From a virus: 27,067 nt of DNA. Positions 4,513-16,395 of the stretch are shown piece by piece. A program made the translations under genes and the position numbers. The stretch spans positions 1 through 27,067 of the IMG/VR virus record IMGVR_UViG_3300046616_000463, one strand, 5' to 3'. The notes beneath the pieces were generated by a model. The model was given only the letters and a program-made list of their open reading frames with translations, was not told where the DNA came from and ran no database searches. Within the stretch, counting starts at the first letter, position 1. Each line of letters opens with the position of its first letter.

Positions 4513-5985
4513 ATGAGTTTCCCGCCTTCGTTGACAACACGAACGGTCCATGGCCGTTTCGTTACGTACCCTGACGGTAAACCCGCCAAGGGAACAGCGC
4601 GAATTGTCCTGGATTCCTACATGCAAGGTCCCACGGATGATGCTTTCGTCGCGCCTTTCGATTTGATGATCCCTTTCGATGCGAATGGTGAGATCACTCT
4701 GATTCTTCCCGCTAACGACGACCCTCAATGGTCGGCGTCTAGCTACCGGATTATCGTTTCGTCAGAGGGTGACAAAGAACCTCTTCGGCGAAGGCTTGTT
4801 GTCCCCTATCAGGGAACGGGTATCGTCGATCTCGCGGACGTGCTCAACGTTCCCGACCCGCCAAAGCCTATGACGTCATTCGTTCTGTTGGCCTCCAAAG
4901 GTGTGGCCGGAGGCGTGGCATCACTGGACAACACAGGAAGAGTCCCCGCAAGTCAGCTACCTTCGAGTAGTGGTGGATCTCTTTCGTGGTTGGATCTGAC
5001 CGACAAACCGTCGACGTTTCCTCCGTCATCGCACACCCATGTCATGTCGGATGTCACCGGTCTCGATTCGGTTCTCTCTTCCAAAGCTGATCTAGTAGGC
5101 GGCGTTCTCCCGACATCACAGCTCCCTGCTCTTGCTGTCGTCGATTTTCTGGGATCTGTTTCTGTCGGACCAGCAATGCTGGCTCTCACGGGACAGAAGG
5201 GCGACTGGTGTATCCGTACGGATCTTGGGCAAGTCTTCGTTATTACCGGTTCAGATCCCACGCAACTGAGCTCCTGGACCGCTATGCCTCTCGGGCCAGT
5301 TCAGGTCCAGTCGGTCAACGGTCAGACGGGAACCGTCGTTCTCGCCAAGGGCGATGTTGGTTTGGGAAACGTCGACAACACCAGCGACGCCAACAAGCCG
5401 GTCAGCACCGCGCAGCAGACCGCCCTGAATCTGAAAGCCAACCTCGCGTCCCCAACGTTTACTGGGACCGTATCCGGCGTCACCGCCGCGATGGTGGGAC
5501 TTGGTAACATCGACAACACGTCTGATGCCAACAAACCAGTGAGTACTGCCCAGCAGACTGCCTTGAACCTTAAGGCGAATCTGGCTAGTCCCACGTTTAC
5601 GGGAACAGTCTCCGGTATTTCCAAGTCGATGGTCGGTTTGGGAAACGTTGACAACACTGCCGACTCTGCGAAGAGTTTCACGGCTTCGCAGATTTCCGAT
5701 TCGACAACGACAGGTCGCTCAGTTGTCACCGCTGCAAATGCTGCGGCAGCGCGATCGGCTATTGGTGCTGGGACATCGGATCTCGCTCTTGGGAGCAGTA
5801 GCACCACGGCACTCGCTGGCGATTCGTTGACGACCCACGTTGCGGCATCTGATCCGCACACTCAGTACGGTCGGATTTTCACGTGGAACGGTTCGGCGTA
5901 CGTGGTCAGTACGACTGCTGACATTTACATTGGTCCCGGCGATCCAGGTTCGATCGACGGTTTGTGGATCGATTCAGACGCATGA
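4513..5985 (+). CDS. tail fibre / minor tail protein with 46-residue repeats
   Basis: A 490-residue protein with AAGGAGGA at 4500-4507. Residues 1-110 form a beta-rich N-terminal domain (VHGRFVTYPDGKPAKGTARIVL), probably the virion anchor. Then follow a linker with LDNTGRVPASQLPSS, HTHVMSDVTGL and SSKADLVGGVLPTSQLP fibre motifs, and a SVNGQTGTVVL segment. Two full and one partial repeats begin VGLGN[VI]DNT at residues 282, 328 and 374, a classic phage fibre repeat. The end carries HVAASDPHTQYGR and IYIGPGDPG near the C-terminus. It is likely a trimeric fibre recognising the host surface. Its stop overlaps the next start (ATGA). Position ahead of the head genes is unusual for a fibre. Confidence 0.8.
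   Translation: MSFPPSLTTRTVHGRFVTYPDGKPAKGTARIVLDSYMQGPTDDAFVAPFDLMIPFDANGEITLILPANDDPQWSASSYRIIVSSEGDKEPLRRRLVVPYQGTGIVDLADVLNVPDPPKPMTSFVLLASKGVAGGVASLDNTGRVPASQLPSSSGGSLSWLDLTDKPSTFPPSSHTHVMSDVTGLDSVLSSKADLVGGVLPTSQLPALAVVDFLGSVSVGPAMLALTGQKGDWCIRTDLGQVFVITGSDPTQLSSWTAMPLGPVQVQSVNGQTGTVVLAKGDVGLGNVDNTSDANKPVSTAQQTALNLKANLASPTFTGTVSGVTAAMVGLGNIDNTSDANKPVSTAQQTALNLKANLASPTFTGTVSGISKSMVGLGNVDNTADSAKSFTASQISDSTTTGRSVVTAANAAAARSAIGAGTSDLALGSSSTTALAGDSLTTHVAASDPHTQYGRIFTWNGSAYVVSTTADIYIGPGDPGSIDGLWIDSDA
5356..5679 (+). repeat. in-frame 46-codon fibre repeats (2 full + 1 partial)
   Basis: Repeat units start at 5356, 5494 and 5632, spaced exactly 138 bp. The first two units are nearly identical as protein (VGLGN[VI]DNTSDANKPVSTAQ onward) but differ at many third codon positions. 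The third shares only its first part (VGLGNVDNT). Confidence 0.85.
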
Positions 5986-7612: not shown

Positions 7613-7960
7613 GTGGAAGACAGCATCCTCACCACCGTCAAGAAAACGCTGGGGTTGGACGAAGCCTATACAGCTTTCGATCTTGACATCACTCTCCACA
7701 TCAATTCGATTCTGTCGAATCTAAATCAAATTGGCGTGGGACCGGTGAATGGATTTCAGATTGAGGACGAGTCGACCACGTGGGGAGACTTTCTTGGCGA
7801 CGATCCTCGCCTGAACAACGTCAAATCGTTCATGTACCTGAAGGTTCGGATGCTCTTCGATCCGCCGGCAACCTCTTTCGCCATCGATGCGTTTGAGAGG
7901 AATGCCAAAGAACTCGAGTATCGAATCTACACAACCATGGAGGTCGACAAGTGGCAGTGA
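7613..7960 (+). CDS. head-tail adaptor (HK97 gp6-like connector)
   Basis: A 115-residue protein starting at GTG 7613 with GAGGGG at 7600-7605. The sequence runs LTTVKKTLGLDE, FDLDITLHINSILSNLNQIGVGPVNGFQI, WGDFLGD, VKSFMYLKVRMLFDPPATSF. This matches small helical phage adaptors that form a ring below the portal (gp6/gp15 type). It is placed before the terminase rather than after the capsid gene, which is atypical. Its end overlaps the next gene by ten bases. Confidence 0.75.
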   Translation: MEDSILTTVKKTLGLDEAYTAFDLDITLHINSILSNLNQIGVGPVNGFQIEDESTTWGDFLGDDPRLNNVKSFMYLKVRMLFDPPATSFAIDAFERNAKELEYRIYTTMEVDKWQ

Positions 7961-8820
7961 CTCCGTCGTACGCCATTGTCGCCATCGCCTCCCAAGACGA
8001 TTACGTCTGGCGACTCTCGAGCGAAAAGAAGCCACATCTGACTCTTCTGTACTTGGGGAATCAACTCAACAATCTTCCTCAAGTTGAAGATTACATCGCA
8101 CATGCAGTTGATACATCCATGTGCAGATTCGGGATGGACGTAGTCAATCGTGGTCCTCTCGGTCCACATTCGGCTGATGTGTTGTTCTTCGGACAGTTCA
8201 ACCTGAAGAAATTGGAGAATTTTCGAGCATATTTGCTCGCGAACACCGATATTCTCCAGGCGTACAATTCGACAGAACAACATCCGGAATTTGTTCCTCA
8301 TCTGACGATGGGGTTTCCGGAAACCCCTGCAAAACCCGATCTACGAGATTATCCCGGTACACCGTGGGTCAATTTCGACAAGATCGCACTCTGGACAGGT
8401 GACAGCGAAGGAGTTGAATTTCCGTTGAAACCCGACGAGGGCCTGGCAATGAGTGCTGCGAGGGGTCAAGCCTTTATCCAGCACCATGGCATCAAGGGCA
8501 TGAAGTGGGGCGTTCGCCGCGCTAGTAATAATGCCACTGAAGGTCATTCTGAAGATGCCATGCGTGTAGCCGCGGCGAAACAGAAACTCAAGAAGGCAAA
8601 GACCACCAATGTTCTGACGACAAAAGAACTTCAGCATCTGGTGACTCGGATGAATCTCGAACAGCAGTTCGCTACCCTCGCGGCGAAGCAACCTACACGG
8701 CTCGGTAAAGGTCAGAAGTTTCTCAAGAATACTCTGACTGTGGGAAAGACCGTGAACGATGTGGTCTCCTTCGTGAATTCCCCGGCTGGAAAACTCATCA
8801 GAGAGCTGTTGAAAAAGTAA
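7951..8820 (+). CDS. 2H phosphoesterase (LigT-like) fused to GIKGMKWG-motif domain
   Basis: A 289-residue protein; GTG 7951 has GGAGG at 7939-7943. Residues 1-150 show the 2H phosphoesterase plan: strand YAIVAIAS, first HxT as PHLTLLYLG (His29, Thr31), second as VPHLTMGF (His117, Thr119). The superfamily includes LigT/ThpR, cyclic phosphodiesterases and anti-CBASS Acb1, all acting on 2',3'- or cyclic-phosphate nucleotides. Residues 178-190 carry HHGIKGMKWGVRR, a motif also in the products at 10739 and 11070. Residues 200-289 are a basic helical tail. It lies between the adaptor and large terminase, so it may be packaged or head-bound. Both catalytic motifs are intact. The substrate cannot be told from sequence: RNA end repair and cyclic-oligonucleotide hydrolysis are both possible. 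Confidence 0.75.
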   Translation: MAVTPSYAIVAIASQDDYVWRLSSEKKPHLTLLYLGNQLNNLPQVEDYIAHAVDTSMCRFGMDVVNRGPLGPHSADVLFFGQFNLKKLENFRAYLLANTDILQAYNSTEQHPEFVPHLTMGFPETPAKPDLRDYPGTPWVNFDKIALWTGDSEGVEFPLKPDEGLAMSAARGQAFIQHHGIKGMKWGVRRASNNATEGHSEDAMRVAAAKQKLKKAKTTNVLTTKELQHLVTRMNLEQQFATLAAKQPTRLGKGQKFLKNTLTVGKTVNDVVSFVNSPAGKLIRELLKK

Positions 8821-8822
8821 TC

Positions 8823-8984
8823 ATGGGTTTTCTTCATGGTGTGATCAGCGATCGCCTCCGCGCGAAGTTCTCGCCAAGCGACCGCGTGTGGACACCGAAA
8901 CGTCTGAAGGATTCCCTGCCGATGCCGAAAAAGGGTGTCCAGGGAGTCAAACTCAGCTCTGGTCAACGTAAAGGAAAAAGGTAG
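8823..8984 (+). CDS. small basic protein
   Basis: A 53-residue ORF filling the gap before the terminase, starting at ATG 8823 and ending at TAG 8982-8984, just ahead of the terminase ribosome site. It is Lys/Arg-rich (DRLRAKFSPSDR, GQRKGKR end) with no hydrophobic segment. The upstream ribosome site is weak, so coupling to the gene ending three bases before is likely. No family recognised. A DNA- or RNA-binding accessory of packaging is possible but unproven. Confidence 0.5.
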   Translation: MGFLHGVISDRLRAKFSPSDRVWTPKRLKDSLPMPKKGVQGVKLSSGQRKGKR

Positions 8985-8999: not shown

Positions 9000-10742
9000 A
9001 TGACGCTGTCGAACACGGCTACGCCTTATTACTATGGTCAGTTCCGTGACGCGGTAATTCGTGGCGAAATTCCTGTGAATCGGGAAATTTCGTTGGAGAT
9101 GAATCGCATCGATACTCTCATCGCCAACCCCAACTACTATTACGATGACGAGGCGATCAACGGTTTCATTCTCTACTGTGAGAATGAACTGACGCTGACT
9201 GACGGTAGTGACTTGCGTCTTTTGCCGTCATTCAAATTGTGGGCAGAACAGATCTTCGGTTGGTATCATTTCATCGAACGAAGCGTTTACGTTCCCGATG
9301 AGGACAACCACGGTGGTCAATACATCACGAAGATCATCAAGAAGCGACTGACCGTCAAGCAATACCTCATTGTCGCCCGAGGTGCTGCTAAATCGGTGTA
9401 TGAATCGTGCATTCAGAGTTACTTTCTGAATGTGGATACACACACCACGCATCAAATTACCACCGCGCCGACGATGAAACAGGCCGAAGAGGTCATGTCA
9501 CCGATCCGAACAGCTATCACGAGAAGTCGCGGGCCACTGTTCAAGTTCCTGACCGATGGTTCGTTGCAGAACACAACCGGATCAAAGGCGAATCGTGTTA
9601 AGCTCGCTGCTACGAAGAAGGGCATTGAGAACTTCTTGACCGGTTCTCTTCTCGAGATTCGACCTATGTCCATCAATAAGCTACAGGGACTACGACCGAA
9701 AACGTCTACGATCGACGAATGGTTGTCTGGGGATCTTCGAGAAGACGTCATTGGCGCCATTGAACAAGGCGCTTCCAAGCTCGACGACTATTTGATCGTT
9801 GCCGTCAGCTCGGAAGGAACTGTTCGAAACGGTTCTGGCGATACCGTCAAAATGGAACTAGCCACCATCCTTCGTGGAGAGTACCAGGCCCCTCACATTT
9901 CTATCTGGCACTACAAGCTGGATGAAATCGAGGAAGTAAGCGATCCTCGCATGTGGCCTAAAGCCAATCCGAACCTGGGGAAAACAGTCACCTACGATGT
10001 TTACCAACAGGATGTCGAGAGAGCTGAGAAAGCTCCCGCCTCTCGCAATGACATCCTCGCCAAGAGGTTCGGCATTCCCATGGAGGGTTATACGTACTTC
10101 TTCACGTACGAAGAAACCACTCCTTTCCGTCGTCGTCATTTCGATGGGATGGTCTGTTCTCTGGGAGCAGACCTTTCGCAGGGCGATGACTTCTGTGCTT
10201 TCACCTTCTTGTTCCCCGTTCGCACCGGATTCGGCATTAAGACTCGTTCCTACATCACGAGTCTGACATTGGCAAAACTTCCTGGAGCCATGCGGCAAAA
10301 GTACGAAGAATTCATCAATGAGGGTAGTCTTCATGTTCTTGAAGGCGCTGTTCTCGACATGATGGATGTGTATGACGATCTCGATCGTCATATCCAAATG
10401 CATGAATACGACATTCGCGCCTTTGGTTACGACCCGTACAATGCCAAAGAATTCGTCACACGTTGGGAACAGGAAAACGGGCCGTTCGGTATCGAGAAAG
10501 TGATCCAGGGAGCAAGAACCGAATCGGTTCCTCTTGGTGAATTGAAGATCCTTGCTGGCGAACGTCAGCTTATCTTTGACGAAGATCTCATGCAATTCGC
10601 CATGGGTAATGCGATCACTCTGGAAGACACGAACGGTAACCGCAAGCTTCTGAAAGCCCGCTACCAAGACAAGATCGACAACGTGTCTGCCCTGTTGGAT
10701 GCTTATGTCGCTTACAAGCTCAATAAGGAGGCGTTCGAATGA
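9000..10742 (+). CDS. terminase large subunit
   Basis: A 580-residue ATPase/nuclease that translocates DNA into the prohead and cuts it; AGAGGAGG at 8985-8992 precedes ATG 9000. The ATPase domain has a Walker A-like ARGAAKS (126-132), where Ala replaces the more usual Gly before the Lys, and Walker B TSTIDEW (235-241, Asp239-Glu240). The RNase H-like nuclease domain has acidic residues at GADLSQGDD (Asp391), FGYDPY (Asp478) and DKIDNVSALLDA (Asp560 or Asp567). Architecture and length fit the Terminase_1 (HK97-like) family. It overlaps the next gene by ATGA and is surrounded by GIKGM-motif genes. Confidence 0.93.
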   Translation: MTLSNTATPYYYGQFRDAVIRGEIPVNREISLEMNRIDTLIANPNYYYDDEAINGFILYCENELTLTDGSDLRLLPSFKLWAEQIFGWYHFIERSVYVPDEDNHGGQYITKIIKKRLTVKQYLIVARGAAKSVYESCIQSYFLNVDTHTTHQITTAPTMKQAEEVMSPIRTAITRSRGPLFKFLTDGSLQNTTGSKANRVKLAATKKGIENFLTGSLLEIRPMSINKLQGLRPKTSTIDEWLSGDLREDVIGAIEQGASKLDDYLIVAVSSEGTVRNGSGDTVKMELATILRGEYQAPHISIWHYKLDEIEEVSDPRMWPKANPNLGKTVTYDVYQQDVERAEKAPASRNDILAKRFGIPMEGYTYFFTYEETTPFRRRHFDGMVCSLGADLSQGDDFCAFTFLFPVRTGFGIKTRSYITSLTLAKLPGAMRQKYEEFINEGSLHVLEGAVLDMMDVYDDLDRHIQMHEYDIRAFGYDPYNAKEFVTRWEQENGPFGIEKVIQGARTESVPLGELKILAGERQLIFDEDLMQFAMGNAITLEDTNGNRKLLKARYQDKIDNVSALLDAYVAYKLNKEAFE

Positions 10743-11068
10743 TCGTGGGCGGCGAGAAGCCTTCTTTGGATGAGCTTCGCCATTTCGGTATCAAGGGCAT
10801 GAAATGGGGAATTCGACGGGCTGTTAGTCGGTTGAATCCGTCGACGTTGATGACCGTCAAAGAAGGAACGCCAGCGGCCAAAAGAATCCAGAGAGAATCT
10901 GACGCTCGTCAGAAAGTCATCGAGGCAATGACCGATGAGCAACACAAGAAAGCTCTGGATCACCTTGCTCAAGCTCAGATGATGAATCGAATCGAAGTAG
11001 GAAAGACCAAAGTTGCGGATCTGGTCAAACGTCACGGTGCCATCTCCGTCAAAACCATGAGTCACTGA
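10739..11068 (+). CDS. GIKGMKWG-motif head-module protein
   Basis: A 109-residue protein beginning at an ATGA overlap with the terminase stop; AAGGAGG at 10726-10732. The motif HFGIKGMKWGIRR occupies residues 15-27. It is followed by a charged helical region (TPAAKRIQRESDARQKVIEAMTDEQ and onward). No enzyme domain. The same motif occurs in the proteins at 7951-8820 and 11070-11465. Motifs of the form HxGIxGxKWGxRR recur in head-module proteins of many phages; to my knowledge the function is not established. Location between terminase and portal suggests a role in packaging or capsid interior. Confidence 0.7.
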   Translation: MIVGGEKPSLDELRHFGIKGMKWGIRRAVSRLNPSTLMTVKEGTPAAKRIQRESDARQKVIEAMTDEQHKKALDHLAQAQMMNRIEVGKTKVADLVKRHGAISVKTMSH

Positions 11069-11069
11069 C

Positions 11070-11465
11070 ATGGACGAAATTCATCATTTCGGCATCAAGG
11101 GTATGCGATGGGGGCATCATAAACTACATGAACTGACGACACCGTCAAAGGATCAGATCAAAAGTGTTGTTCAAGCAACTGGTCAAAGATCCAAAAAAAT
11201 CGCGGTTACAACTAGCCAAGTCATTTCGTATGCGGCACATCACAAGCGCACGGTTGCTGGTGCCGCAGTACTTGGTCTTCTCCTCCGTGATGTCGGTATT
11301 ATGACAGTTCGTGTGGGAAAAACAGGGATCTTGTTCAAAGCTGCCAAGAATCGACAAGCAGCATATGAAGCAGGAAAACTGGCTGCAAGAGCTCTTTCGT
11401 CCACCGCAGCAAAAGTCAATTACGCCAAATTGGTCAAGGGCGCATACAAGATCACGACGTTGTAG
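11070..11465 (+). CDS. GIKGMRWG-motif protein with hydrophobic segment
   Basis: A 131-residue basic protein starting one base after the previous stop. The motif HFGIKGMRWG is at residues 6-15, close to the N-terminus, followed by HHK rather than VRR/IRR. A hydrophobic stretch (VAGAAVLGLLLRDVGIMTV, about 63-81) could be a membrane segment, which would suit a virion protein that enters the membrane on ejection. The C-terminus is Lys/Ala-rich and helical. Function unknown. It directly precedes the portal gene. Confidence 0.7.
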   Translation: MDEIHHFGIKGMRWGHHKLHELTTPSKDQIKSVVQATGQRSKKIAVTTSQVISYAAHHKRTVAGAAVLGLLLRDVGIMTVRVGKTGILFKAAKNRQAAYEAGKLAARALSSTAAKVNYAKLVKGAYKITTL

Positions 11466-11481: not shown

Positions 11482-12804
11482 ATGCCATTCGTTGACCGAA
11501 TCAAGCATGCGTGGAACGCGTTCCTAGGACTTGAAGTTCGGAACGATTTCGACTTTAGCCGTGGTCCTATGACATATGGACCGACTCGACCCGACCGAGC
11601 GCGATTGATGTTCGGCAACGAACGTTCGATCATCTCCTCGATCTACACTCGTCTGGGGATTGATGCCGCGGCGATCGACATTTTCCACGTTCGTTTGGAC
11701 GATAAGAAGCGTTACGCTGGCGATGTCGATAGTGGGTTGAATAATTGCCTTACTATCGAAGCCAACATCGACCAAGGAGCTCGGGCATTTCGTCAGGATA
11801 TCGCGATGACGATGTTTGACAAGGGTGCTATCGCTATCGTCCCCGTGGATACGACGATCGACCCGAACGCTTCGGGAGCCTTCGACATCAAAACCATGCG
11901 TGTCGGTCACATTACGGGATGGCATCCCCAGCACGTTGTGGTTGAGGTATACAACGAGGTCAAGGGTGTTCGCCAAGAGGTCACGCTCGACAAGAAATTT
12001 GTTGCTATTGTCGAGAATCCTCTCTATTCGGTAATGAATGAGCCGAATTCGACTCTTCAGCGTCTGATCCGCAAGCTAAGCTTGTTGGACTCGATGGACG
12101 AAATGGCGAGTTCAGGAAAGCTGGACATGATCATCCAGCTTCCTTACACCATTAAGTCTGATGCTCGTCGAGTCGACGCTGAACGTCGACGATCTGAAAT
12201 CGAGACACAGCTTCGAGGAAGCAAGTATGGTATTGCGTATACCGACGGTACGGAGAAGATCACTCAACTCAACCGTCCGGTGGAGAATACCCTCCTGAAG
12301 CAAATCGAGTGGCTCACGGGTCAGCTGTATTCTCAACTTGGTCTTACGCCCGAAGTGATGAATGGTACCGCCGACGAAGCGACCATGAAGAATTATCACA
12401 ATCGGACCACCGAACCGATTGTGGCTGCGATCGTCGAAGAGATGAGGCGTAAATTCCTCACCAAGACAGCTCGATCGCAAGGTCAATCGATCATGGCGTT
12501 CCGTGACCCGTTCAAGTTGGTCCCGATCAGCGACATCGCAGAGATTGCTGACAAACTCACTCGAAACGAAATTGTCAGCGCCAATGAGATCCGCGGATTC
12601 ATGGGTATCAAGCCTTCCACAGACCCCAAGGCAGATCAGTTGGTGAACAGCAACATGCCTGAACCCAATCAGCTGCCCAAGTCCAACGTTCCGACGATTG
12701 ATGGGGAAGTGGTCGATCGCAACGCTGCGACATCGGAGTTGTCTGCGAACAATAGACGACAAATCACGGGCTCCGTCGGAGCCAGTACATCCAATACGAG
12801 GTAA
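11482..12804 (+). CDS. portal protein
   Basis: A 440-residue phage portal (HK97/Phage_portal family), the dodecameric ring at the packaging vertex. Recognisable parts are the N-terminal SIISSIYTRLGIDAAAIDIFHV, a central KLSLLDSMDEMASSGKLDMIIQLPY region, KYGIAYTDGTEKITQLNRPVEN, and the crown-proximal QIEWLTGQLYSQLGLTPEVMNGTADEATM followed by VAAIVEEMRRKFLTKTAR. The last 50 residues (NQLPKSNVPTIDGE and a Ser/Asn-rich tail) look disordered. It follows the two GIKGM-motif genes and precedes the protease-capsid gene, the standard head order. Confidence 0.9.
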   Translation: MPFVDRIKHAWNAFLGLEVRNDFDFSRGPMTYGPTRPDRARLMFGNERSIISSIYTRLGIDAAAIDIFHVRLDDKKRYAGDVDSGLNNCLTIEANIDQGARAFRQDIAMTMFDKGAIAIVPVDTTIDPNASGAFDIKTMRVGHITGWHPQHVVVEVYNEVKGVRQEVTLDKKFVAIVENPLYSVMNEPNSTLQRLIRKLSLLDSMDEMASSGKLDMIIQLPYTIKSDARRVDAERRRSEIETQLRGSKYGIAYTDGTEKITQLNRPVENTLLKQIEWLTGQLYSQLGLTPEVMNGTADEATMKNYHNRTTEPIVAAIVEEMRRKFLTKTARSQGQSIMAFRDPFKLVPISDIAEIADKLTRNEIVSANEIRGFMGIKPSTDPKADQLVNSNMPEPNQLPKSNVPTIDGEVVDRNAATSELSANNRRQITGSVGASTSNTR

Positions 12805-12822: not shown

Positions 12823-14880
12823 ATGGAACCCGATTTCGGCGGGTATGCCACTAAGGCTGGTCTCAGGTGCTCCGACGGACGAGTGATCAAGGCCGAAGCC
12901 TTCCAGCACATGGACGGCAAGAAGGTCCCGCTCGTCTACCAGCACGGGCACAACGCCCTGGACAACGTTCTAGGTCACGTCATGCTCGAGGCCCGCGACG
13001 ACGGCATGTACAGCTACGGTTTCTTCAACGACACGAAGAACGGCAAGCTGGCCAAGACCTCGGTCCAGCACGGCGATCTCGACTCACTGTCGATCTGGGC
13101 GAACGGGTTGAAGGAGATCAACAAGAACGTCTCGCACGGCAACATCCGCGAGGTCAGTCTCGTTCTCTCCGGTGCCAATCCCGGCGCCAAGATCGACTAC
13201 GTCCGCATTCAGCACGGTGACGATCCCGACGACGTCACGGAGCTCGCGGATGAGGCCATCATTCACACCGGAGAGTCGATCCTCGTTCTTCCCGAGAAGA
13301 CCGAGACCGTCGTCGAGACCAAGGAGGATGACGCGAAGAAGACCGAGACTGTCGAGACCAAGGACGAGGTCCAGCACGCCGACAACCAGGACATGAGCGT
13401 TCAGGACGTGTTCGACTCCATGACCGACCAGCAGAAGCAGGTCACCGAATATCTGATCGGCGCGGCCCTCGAAGAAGCCGCGAGTTCCACGAACGACGGC
13501 GCCGCCGAACACTCCGACAACGATGAGGGCGGCATCGCCCACCAGGAAGGAAACGACGACATGACTCGCAACCTCTTCGAGTCGCAGCAGGCCGGCGCCA
13601 CCGGCACGGCGACCGACAAGCAGCACACGCTGTCCCACAGCGATCTGGAGGGTATCTTCGAGCAGGGCCGGAGGCTCGGCTCGCTCAAGGCGGCCGTGGA
13701 GCAGTACGCCGAGGCGCACCTCGAGCACGGTATCAGCAACATCGACATCCTGTTCCCCGACGCCAAGAACATCACCGGCGCTCCGGAGCTGGACAAGCGG
13801 CGTACCGAGTGGGTCGCGTCGGTCCTCAACAGCACCCGCCACACCCCGTTCTCTCGGATCAAGACCTTCGCCGCGGACCTGACGCAGGACCAGGCCCGTG
13901 CCAAGGGCTACATCAAGGGCAACTACAAGCTCGAGGAATGGTTCGGCGTCACGAAGCGCACCACGACGCCGACCACGATCTACAAGAAGCAGAAGCTCGA
14001 GCGCGACGACATGCTGGACATCACCGACTTCGACATCGTCGCCTTCCTCAAGGCGGAGATGCGGCTCATGACCGAGGAGGAGGTCGCGCGAGCGATCCTC
14101 ATCGGCGATGGTCGGGACGTCTCGGCGGAGGACAAGGTCAAGGACCCGATGGGCGCCTCGGACGGTGCCGGCATCCGGTCCGTGCTGAACGACCACGAGT
14201 ACTTCGTGACCACGCTGAACGTGAACGTCGACGACGCCAACTCGTCCTACGAGGAGGTTGTGGACGCCGTCATGGACGGCATGGAGTTCTACAAGGGGAC
14301 CGGTTCCCCGACCTTCTACACCACGGTCCCGGAGCTCAACAAGTTCCTCAAGGCCCGCGACGGCATGCAGCGGCGCATCTACGCCAACAAGGCCGAGGTG
14401 GCTCAGGCGCTGGGTGTGCAGGACATCGTCACCGTGGAGCCGATGAAGGAGGTCTCGGGTCTGGTCGGCATCATCGTCAACCTCGGGGACTACAACGTCG
14501 GCACCGACCGTGGCGGCGAACTCACGATGTTCGACGACTTCGACATCGACTACAACCAGCAGAAGTACCTGCTGGAGACCCGCCTGTCGGGCGCTCTGAT
14601 CCGGCCGAAGACCGCCCTGGTCATCCGCAAGACCGGTGCGTCCAACGTGCTCGCGGTGCCGCTGAAGCCGGCGTTCGTGGCGTCCACGGGTGTCGTGACG
14701 ATCCCGACCGTCACCGGCGTCGTCTACAAGGGTGCCGACGGTACGACCACGCTGACCGCGGGTGCGCAGACCGCCCTGGCGGCCGGCGCGAGCACCACCG
14801 TCTACGCTGTCCCGGCGTCCGGCTACTACTTCGCCAACACGGTGGACGACTCGTGGCCGTTCACGCGTAACCCGGCCTGA
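12823..14880 (+). CDS. prohead protease-scaffold-major capsid fusion
   Basis: A single 685-residue ORF (GAGGAG upstream). Residues 20-130 are a U35-type prohead protease: VYQHGHN (His41/43), LGHVMLEARDDG, SLSIWANG (Ser90 candidate) and the signature REVSLVLSGANPGAKIDYV. Residues 140-245 are acidic, Glu/Lys-rich and low-complexity, like a delta/scaffold domain. Residues 247-620 are an HK97-fold capsid protein (EWFGVTKRTTTPTTIY, then DITDFDIVAFLKAEMRLMTEEE, AILIGDGR, then DFDIDYNQQKYLLETRLSGALIRPKTAL). Residues about 620-685 form an Ig-like tail domain shared with the major tail protein. An in-frame ATG at 13561 with its own ribosome site could yield free capsid protein. Codons are heavily GC-ending, fitting a very abundant protein. 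Confidence 0.88.
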   Translation: MEPDFGGYATKAGLRCSDGRVIKAEAFQHMDGKKVPLVYQHGHNALDNVLGHVMLEARDDGMYSYGFFNDTKNGKLAKTSVQHGDLDSLSIWANGLKEINKNVSHGNIREVSLVLSGANPGAKIDYVRIQHGDDPDDVTELADEAIIHTGESILVLPEKTETVVETKEDDAKKTETVETKDEVQHADNQDMSVQDVFDSMTDQQKQVTEYLIGAALEEAASSTNDGAAEHSDNDEGGIAHQEGNDDMTRNLFESQQAGATGTATDKQHTLSHSDLEGIFEQGRRLGSLKAAVEQYAEAHLEHGISNIDILFPDAKNITGAPELDKRRTEWVASVLNSTRHTPFSRIKTFAADLTQDQARAKGYIKGNYKLEEWFGVTKRTTTPTTIYKKQKLERDDMLDITDFDIVAFLKAEMRLMTEEEVARAILIGDGRDVSAEDKVKDPMGASDGAGIRSVLNDHEYFVTTLNVNVDDANSSYEEVVDAVMDGMEFYKGTGSPTFYTTVPELNKFLKARDGMQRRIYANKAEVAQALGVQDIVTVEPMKEVSGLVGIIVNLGDYNVGTDRGGELTMFDDFDIDYNQQKYLLETRLSGALIRPKTALVIRKTGASNVLAVPLKPAFVASTGVVTIPTVTGVVYKGADGTTTLTAGAQTALAAGASTTVYAVPASGYYFANTVDDSWPFTRNPA
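13545..13563 (+). promoter_or_regulatory. internal ribosome-binding site and start for free major capsid protein
   Basis: GGAAGGA at 13545-13551 is nine bases ahead of ATG 13561, which is in frame with the protease-capsid ORF. The predicted product (MTRNLFESQQ onward, 439 residues) has the length and N-terminus of an ordinary HK97-type capsid protein. Whether it is used is inference. Confidence 0.55.
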
Positions 14881-15513: not shown

Positions 15514-16395
15514 ATGACCAAGCTCCTTTGGGATCAGGTCGGCGAGCGGACCTACGAGACCGGTGTCGACCACGGCGTTCTGTACCCCGTCAACACCACT
15601 ACCGGTGCCTACGACTTCGGTGTGGCGTGGAACGGTTTGGTGACCCTGACCGAGTCGCCGTCGGGCGCGGAGGCCAATGCCCAGTACGCCGACAACATCA
15701 AGTACCTCAATCTGACCAGTGCCGAGGAGTTCGGCGGCACCATCGAGGCTTTCACCTACCCGATCGAGTTCGCGGAGTGCGACGGCTCGGCAGTGGTGAA
15801 CGGCGGCGTTTCCATCGGTCAGCAGACTCGACGCGTCTTCGGTCTTTGCTACCGGAGCCGTCTGGGCAACGACCTCGAGGGTAACGACCACGGCTACAAG
15901 CTGCACCTGGTGTACGGCGCCACCGCGGCGCCGTCGGAGCGGGCGTACGGCACGATCAACGACTCGCCGGAGCCGATCACATTCAGCTGGGAGTTCTCCA
16001 CCTACCCGTTGGGGGTTGGCACCATCAGCGGTGTCACCTACAAGCCGACGTCCACTCTGGTCATCGACTCCACCCTGGTGGACGCCACCGCGCTCGCGGC
16101 GCTCGAGGACCAGCTGTACGGGACCGTCGGCACCGACCCGGCCCTGCCGCTCCCGGCCGCCGTCATCGCCATCTTCGCCGGCACGATCACGGTGGCGACG
16201 CCGACCGCGCCGACGTACAACTCGACCACCAAGGTCATCACCATCCCGACCGTCACCGGTGTCGTCTACAAGATCAACGGTGTCACCAAGACCGGCACCG
16301 TGACCATCACCGAGGACACGGTCGTCAACGCGGTTCCGGCCGCCGGCTACCGCTTCCCCGCGGTCACCGACGACGACTGGTTCTTCGACTTCTAG
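15514..16395 (+). CDS. major tail protein 1 with C-terminal Ig-like domain
   Basis: A 293-residue tail-tube protein (GAGGA upstream of ATG 15514). The tube domain spans about residues 1-225: RTYETGVDHGVLYP, a NGLVTLTESPSGAE segment, YLNLTSAEEFGGTIEAFTYP, EFAECDGS, LGNDLEGNDHGYKLHLVYG and a LYGT segment. Residues about 232-293 are an Ig-like domain (VITIPTVTGVVYK through PAAGYRFPAV) that closely matches the capsid C-terminus. GC-ending codon bias is as strong as in the capsid gene, fitting hundreds of copies per virion. It is paralogous to the product at 16971-17759. I take this copy as the main tube subunit. Confidence 0.88.
   Translation: MTKLLWDQVGERTYETGVDHGVLYPVNTTTGAYDFGVAWNGLVTLTESPSGAEANAQYADNIKYLNLTSAEEFGGTIEAFTYPIEFAECDGSAVVNGGVSIGQQTRRVFGLCYRSRLGNDLEGNDHGYKLHLVYGATAAPSERAYGTINDSPEPITFSWEFSTYPLGVGTISGVTYKPTSTLVIDSTLVDATALAALEDQLYGTVGTDPALPLPAAVIAIFAGTITVATPTAPTYNSTTKVITIPTVTGVVYKINGVTKTGTVTITEDTVVNAVPAAGYRFPAVTDDDWFFDF

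Follow-up and report, generated by a model that had tools for sequence, protein, structure and literature searches.

Head-packaged 2H counter-defence enzymes have already been proposed: where a 2H domain is part of a MuF or portal protein, it was suggested to be packaged and injected to act against nucleotide signals (Iyer 2017, 2022; PMC5512222, PMC9503650). LigT-like phosphodiesterases are established viral anti-immunity enzymes (PMC9117128, PMC11410667). Here we analysed a window of 27,067 bases, that is, the whole stretch of DNA under study (IMG/VR virus record IMGVR_UViG_3300046616_000463), which encodes a 2H phosphoesterase joined to a short motif, DUF7211. What this locus adds is the attachment of such an enzyme to another anchor, together with a possible role of DUF7211 as a general cargo tag. 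No description of DUF7211 as the cargo tag of one head lineage was found in the searchable papers.

The locus

The 2H gene (P0001, positions 7951 to 8820, on the plus strand like the head genes that follow) starts with GTG and encodes 289 amino acids with Pfam and PHROG matches. It adjoins the upstream gene for a connector protein (PF24829, 7613 to 7960, plus strand, E 2.5e-38), whose 3' end it overlaps by 10 nt. A GGAGG within the connector gene (7939 to 7943), 7 nt ahead of the GTG, is the likely ribosome-binding site. The product is made up of a 2H phosphoesterase domain (residues ~5 to 165, 7963 to 8445), the DUF7211 tag (residues 174 to 192, 8470 to 8526) and a helical C-terminal region (8527 to 8817), the last defined from the alignment and the AlphaFold2 model and carrying a LTTKELQHLVTRMNLEQQF pattern common to tag proteins. 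Downstream lie TerL, the terminase large subunit (9000 to 10742; Pfam and PHROG matches), two DUF7211-type tag proteins without an enzyme domain (P0002, 10739 to 11068; P0003, 11070 to 11465), the portal protein (11482 to 12804; Pfam and PHROG matches) and a protease-major capsid fusion (12823 to 14880, phrog_3270 E 8e-237), which serves as the head-lineage marker co-occurring with the tag. Against the nearest relative (L004), the 2H part had a dN of 0.146 and a dS of 1.48, and the tag a dN of 0.045. The 2H gene is therefore under purifying selection and is not a chance reading frame.

Some further features of the window were recorded. A basic ORF of 53 aa (8823 to 8984) without a PHROG match lies between the 2H gene and TerL. 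The protease-capsid gene has a third-position GC of 0.90, compared with 0.42 to 0.66 in the adjoining head genes, which points to recent exchange or to strong selection on codon use. At their C-termini, the capsid fusion (about 14700 to 14877) and the protein at 15514 to 16395 (16190 to 16395) both carry an IPTVTGVVYK...AVPA.GY.F-like domain with a weak Flg_new_2/InlB-like match, as if one surface domain decorated both capsid and tail. Finally, a tail-fibre-like protein (4513 to 5985) contains repeated GLGN(V/I)DNTSDANKPVSTAQQTALNLKANLASPTFTGTVSG units.

The 2H domain

The first-pass annotation, made from the sequence alone, had reported two intact HxT motifs, and this holds. H29-L-T31 (8035 to 8043) aligns with the LigT HLT, and H117-L-T119 (8299 to 8307) aligns with the second HxT of both LigT and Acb1. 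In the alignment of 26 relatives all four residues were invariant (H29 in 24/24, T31 in 25/25, H117 in 26/26 and T119 in 26/26, the denominators being the relatives with sequence present at that position), while the mean column identity of the full-length 2H-tag family alignment was 20%. Sequence models alone stayed below their thresholds: Pfam 2_5_RNA_ligase2 matched with a sub-threshold E of 3.8e-4, and TIGR02258, the ThpR/LigT equivalog, scored 24.2 bits against a curated cutoff of 65.7. The assignment is nevertheless secure because of three other results, namely a whole-family match to phrog_24711 (E 2e-63), the predicted fold, and a profile alignment in which the two HxT motifs fall into register with those of E. 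coli ThpR/LigT. The AlphaFold2 model reached a pLDDT of about 95 over residues 1 to 160. At E <= 0.001 it matched 36 PDB chains, of which the best were all 2H enzymes, with Z values of 13.1 for plant CPDase, 12.9 for YjcG, 12.5 for Usb1, 12.2 for LigT, 11.4 for rotavirus VP3 and 8.1 for Acb1. The model superposes on 2H folds and, by profile alignment, the HxT motifs stand in the LigT register, which speaks indirectly for a putative single active site. Sequence, conservation and the predicted fold mark the N-terminal domain as a putative metal-independent 2H phosphodiesterase with an intact HxT/HxT site, and it is almost certainly catalytically competent.

The earlier suggestion of a link to Acb1 survives at the level of the superfamily and no further. 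Structural comparison with Acb1 and ThpR, which the first-pass annotation had named as a check, returned a 2H fold nearer to LigT than to Acb1; the Acb1 Z value of about 8 contrasts with 11 to 13 for CPDase, LigT, Usb1 and VP3. A Pfam search of the 2H protein gave no match to Acb1 (PF23474) at E <= 1, and the Acb1 model matched the distant relative L026 alone, at an E of 0.024 that falls short of the cutoff. Profile alignment to T4 Acb1 covered only 32 columns, with the second HxT aligned. Acb1 stacks nucleobases with the aromatic residues Y12, W74, F107 and W147 (PMC9117128). Only F107 could be aligned to the window protein; it corresponds to His111, a position that is mostly Phe or Tyr in the relatives. 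With no Pfam match and weak profile overlap, membership in the Acb1 family was rejected. PADLOC gave no match.

The DUF7211 tag and its head lineage

The motif HHGIKGMKWGVRR at residues 178 to 190 of the 2H protein (8482 to 8520) belongs to Pfam DUF7211 (PF23847; E 2.8e-11, 43.1 bits, gathering cutoff 27). The family was also matched in the ORF at 10739 to 11068 (E 5e-9, 35.9 bits, over the same cutoff), and the ORF at 11070 to 11465 carries the tag as HFGIKGMRWG (E 7e-6), at 25.7 bits slightly under it. The two further copies that had been described as flanking the terminase are thus present, but both lie downstream of TerL, with the 2H gene upstream. The tag alone was predicted to be disordered (pLDDT < 50 in the AlphaFold2 model), as expected of a short binding motif. 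Two other interpretations were rejected. Proteins with several tags between domains prompted us to consider prohead-protease cleavage at the tag; the preceding residue is variable (A, E, Y, S or Q), which gives no support to a cleavage consensus. The tail following the tag was also considered as a scaffold protein, for which there was only a low-complexity match (E 0.046). One 1129-aa protein (L173:3943-7332) has three tag copies separating domains without assigned function. In the searched literature no paper mentions DUF7211, and for GMKWG the only match is a clinical paper on another subject.

DUF7211 follows a single head lineage, defined by its connector, TerL, portal and protease-capsid fusion. 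Phage searches with the tag and with the protease-capsid fusion as queries, compared by genus counts and not by accessions, gave 95/95 for Arthrobacter, 55/55 for Gordonia, 54/54 for Streptomyces, 7/7 for Curtobacterium, and 4/4 each for Rhodococcus and Microbacterium. Relatives of TerL are spread far wider (1152 phage records). In bacterial genomes, 46 of the 52 tag loci lay near this lineage's genes for connector, TerL, portal or protease-capsid fusion, with TerL at E <= 2e-55. The tag was absent from a small control set of phages (HK97, phiC31, TP901-1 and three of MuF type), and these phages matched the head genes weakly at most (HK97 TerL, 9e-18). The 2H domain and a head-module motif do share one chain, as the first-pass annotation had it, the motif, DUF7211, being peculiar to the head module of a single lineage of phages. 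The correlation between tag and head could also come from mere co-inheritance of neighbouring genes, with no loading function. A literature search found no virion proteomics of the DUF7211/protease-capsid lineage. Tag-bearing head modules also turned up in contigs that binning had assigned to a Thermoplasmata archaeon (L234), Dependentiae (L251) and Saccharibacteria (L242), placements that could be binning errors.

The slot upstream of TerL

Among relatives, wherever a locus had a 2H match and TerL in reach, the 2H gene shared the strand of TerL and lay directly upstream of it (37 loci with 2H were listed, some of them redundant and one too short to include TerL), usually straight after the connector gene. 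Cultured phages with a 2H protein in this slot are Streptomyces phage Miek (gp6), Gordonia phage Nithya (gp16) and Rhodococcus phage ReqiPoco6 (gp015). A tag protein lacking 2H occupies the slot in Arthrobacter phage Gordon (gp6) and Lactococcus phage 1706 (orf7); the 1706 protein has two tags and is annotated by its depositors as a structural protein. ReqiPepy6 gp013 is listed as hypothetical, and the label 'structural protein' seen under the ReqiPepy6 and ReqiPoco6 matches was discounted, as it belongs to the overlapping connector gene and not to the 2H gene. Judged by genus counts and annotated hits, most of the Streptomyces members lack 2H, and every listed Arthrobacter match to 2H is of the MuF type, so the domain is optional in the lineage. 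It has the look of an extension that a core head-module protein may or may not carry.

Names given to these proteins differ between records such as OQ938581 and MZ388556, where 'RNA ligase', 'phosphoesterase' and 'hydrolase' all occur; Miek gp6 and Nithya gp16 are both named RNA ligase. The 'RNA ligase' label is unsupported by any ligase domain. A scan of bacterial genomes found no 2H-tag fusion, all 52 of 52 loci matching the tag part only, and therefore gave no host for the window phage.

Other domains on the tag and a second anchor for the enzyme

The tag is joined to other domains as well. Among the tag proteins of at least 230 aa (n=105), 26 matched 2H, nine a papain-fold Gln_amidase, two GNAT and one a zincin (M90). 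One chain (L136:1854-3455) combines 2H, tag, GNAT acetyltransferase, a second tag and a helical tail. The commonest unnamed partner domain, found in L010:7692-8453 and 14 relatives (alignment A6), is encoded beside TerL and portal and conserves D71, Y75 and GY...DxND. Outside the tag its model mostly exceeded a pLDDT of 90, and its fold matches were modest (Foldseek E 5e-3; Z 6 to 8). Most of the best ones came from the ADP-ribosyltransferase/NADase superfamily, with MbcT, a RES-domain toxin, as one of them; a cyanophage ejectosome protein was also among the best. This large family has a predicted fold like that of ART/NADase enzymes. 2H, papain, GNAT and ART-type domains are kinds known from injected phage effectors (PMC5512222). 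Another 2H-tag protein (L010:3276-4613) has a C-terminal region with FFTHESAHALFH, a possible HExxH zincin motif.

Searching with the 2H domain only, we found a homologous domain in Arthrobacter and Microbacterium phages as well, between the MuF and protease regions of a capsid maturation protein. The MuF-fused copy of SilentRX gp19 is 34% identical to the window domain (blastp, E 3e-22), and such copies keep the HxT motifs (HCT, HAT or HMT for one and HVT for the other). The proteins of SilentRX, MellowYellow and Blab that contain this 2H homologue also have PF04233 (MuF); a Pfam search found no match to PF04233 in the window 2H protein. Homologous 2H domains in tag and MuF chains have therefore been attached to two unrelated head anchors. 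We regard this as the strongest argument, by inference from sequence, for a function that would be delivered with the head.

Proposed function and alternatives

Our overall reading, to which we give a little less than an even chance, is that a head-associated 2H phosphoesterase is delivered with the DNA and cleaves a host nucleotide signal. The enzyme would be made late in the packaging and head operon as an N-terminal extension of the DUF7211 tag protein, its position being seen and its lateness presumed. Tag and helical tail would direct it to the head in this lineage of phages, and some copies would enter the next cell together with the DNA. There it might cleave a small nucleotide or an RNA 2',3'-linked phosphate, with an alarm nucleotide of the host as the likeliest target, which is the weakest step. 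The gene lies in the head module, on the same strand before TerL, and we consider it probable that the product is head-associated or packaged. If it is, we lean towards host nucleotide signals as what it acts on.

The closest solved folds (CPDase, YjcG, Usb1 and LigT, Z 12 to 13) and the best PDB profile matches, which are archaeal 2'-5' RNA ligase-like proteins, would also suit an enzyme of RNA end-processing. Such a ThpR/LigT- or CPDase-like protein, packaged or not, would act on 2',3'-cyclic phosphates or 2'-5' links of RNA, for example after a host anticodon nuclease. However, fold similarity does not fix the substrate, and the TIGR02258 score is far under its cutoff. Moreover, the complete genome of Streptomyces phage Miek has no annotated RNA ligase, kinase, RtcB or other RNA-repair enzyme, and no ligase association was seen for head-fused 2H domains (Iyer 2017; PMC5512222). 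We consider this alternative rather unlikely.

The location of the gene within the head and packaging operon, overlapping the connector gene, agrees too with an enzyme that is never delivered and works in the producing cell, acting during assembly against late-triggered defences while the tag only tethers it to proheads. Yet a cytoplasmic enzyme would have no obvious need of a head tether, and the homologous 2H domain has been built independently into MuF head proteins; we think such a role unlikely. Invariance of the four catalytic residues in a family as divergent as this one, and also in the MuF-fused copies, argues against a structural or assembly role, in which the tag protein would count among the core minor components of the head and its 2H fold would serve for binding or as an accessory, with no catalysis of relevance. 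The tag-only proteins in the same slot (Arthrobacter phage Gordon gp6 and 1706 orf7) and a weak match of low complexity between the tail and a scaffold protein would fit that role, which we nevertheless hold to be quite improbable.

If delivery with the DNA is the right reading for the 2H protein, host nucleotide-based immunity may be disarmed ahead of any phage gene expression. DUF7211 itself might be a short cargo-loading tag of one HK97-type head lineage, the one with a protease-capsid fusion, in phages of many bacterial phyla, by which interchangeable effectors (2H, ART/NADase-like, papain-fold, GNAT and zincin-like) are packed and injected. We put this forward tentatively, as a possibility that we do not quite favour, and with the same reserve we see in DUF7211 a potential counterpart to MuF fusions and encapsulin targeting peptides. 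If true, an unexplained family in hundreds of phages would become a sequence handle for injected effectors. DUF7211 would then also be a short and directly testable peptide for putting chosen reporter proteins into phage heads of laboratory strains. Even if the cargo reading is wrong, the 'RNA ligase' label in many actinophage records is corrected.

Comparison with known systems

The ThpR/LigT RNA 2',3'-cyclic phosphodiesterases share with the window protein the 2H fold, with HxT motifs in register and Z of about 12. By contrast, the window protein is far under their family cutoff, stands in a phage head context and carries a tag and a helical tail. The anti-CBASS nuclease Acb1 (T4 57B, FBB1) has the same fold and HxT/HxT tetrad, and an aromatic-x-P-H-x-T pattern at the second motif is common to T4 Acb1 and the window protein. 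However, the Pfam Acb1 model is unmatched, Z is 8.1, and T4 Acb1 is a free-standing protein. In the 2'-5' phosphodiesterase domain of rotavirus VP3 (Z 11.4), a viral 2H enzyme is likewise joined to a viral structural protein, but rotavirus is a eukaryotic RNA virus, the substrate is 2-5A, and we do not claim shared descent.

Encapsulin cargo-loading peptides are short peptides found on diverse enzymes and used with an HK97-type shell. Their likeness to DUF7211 is an analogy only: DUF7211 may stand internally or at the N-terminus and is sometimes repeated, and loading is its candidate function. MuF-effector fusions and polyvalent injected proteins resemble the tag proteins in having interchangeable effector-type domains on one head-associated anchor, whereas the anchor in the window is a 25-residue DUF7211 motif without a MuF domain. 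In the MuF/portal-2H fusions described by Iyer, 2H and a phage head component are likewise found in one chain. The window protein differs from them in its partner, DUF7211, in its protease-capsid lineage, and in being encoded by a separate small gene before TerL.
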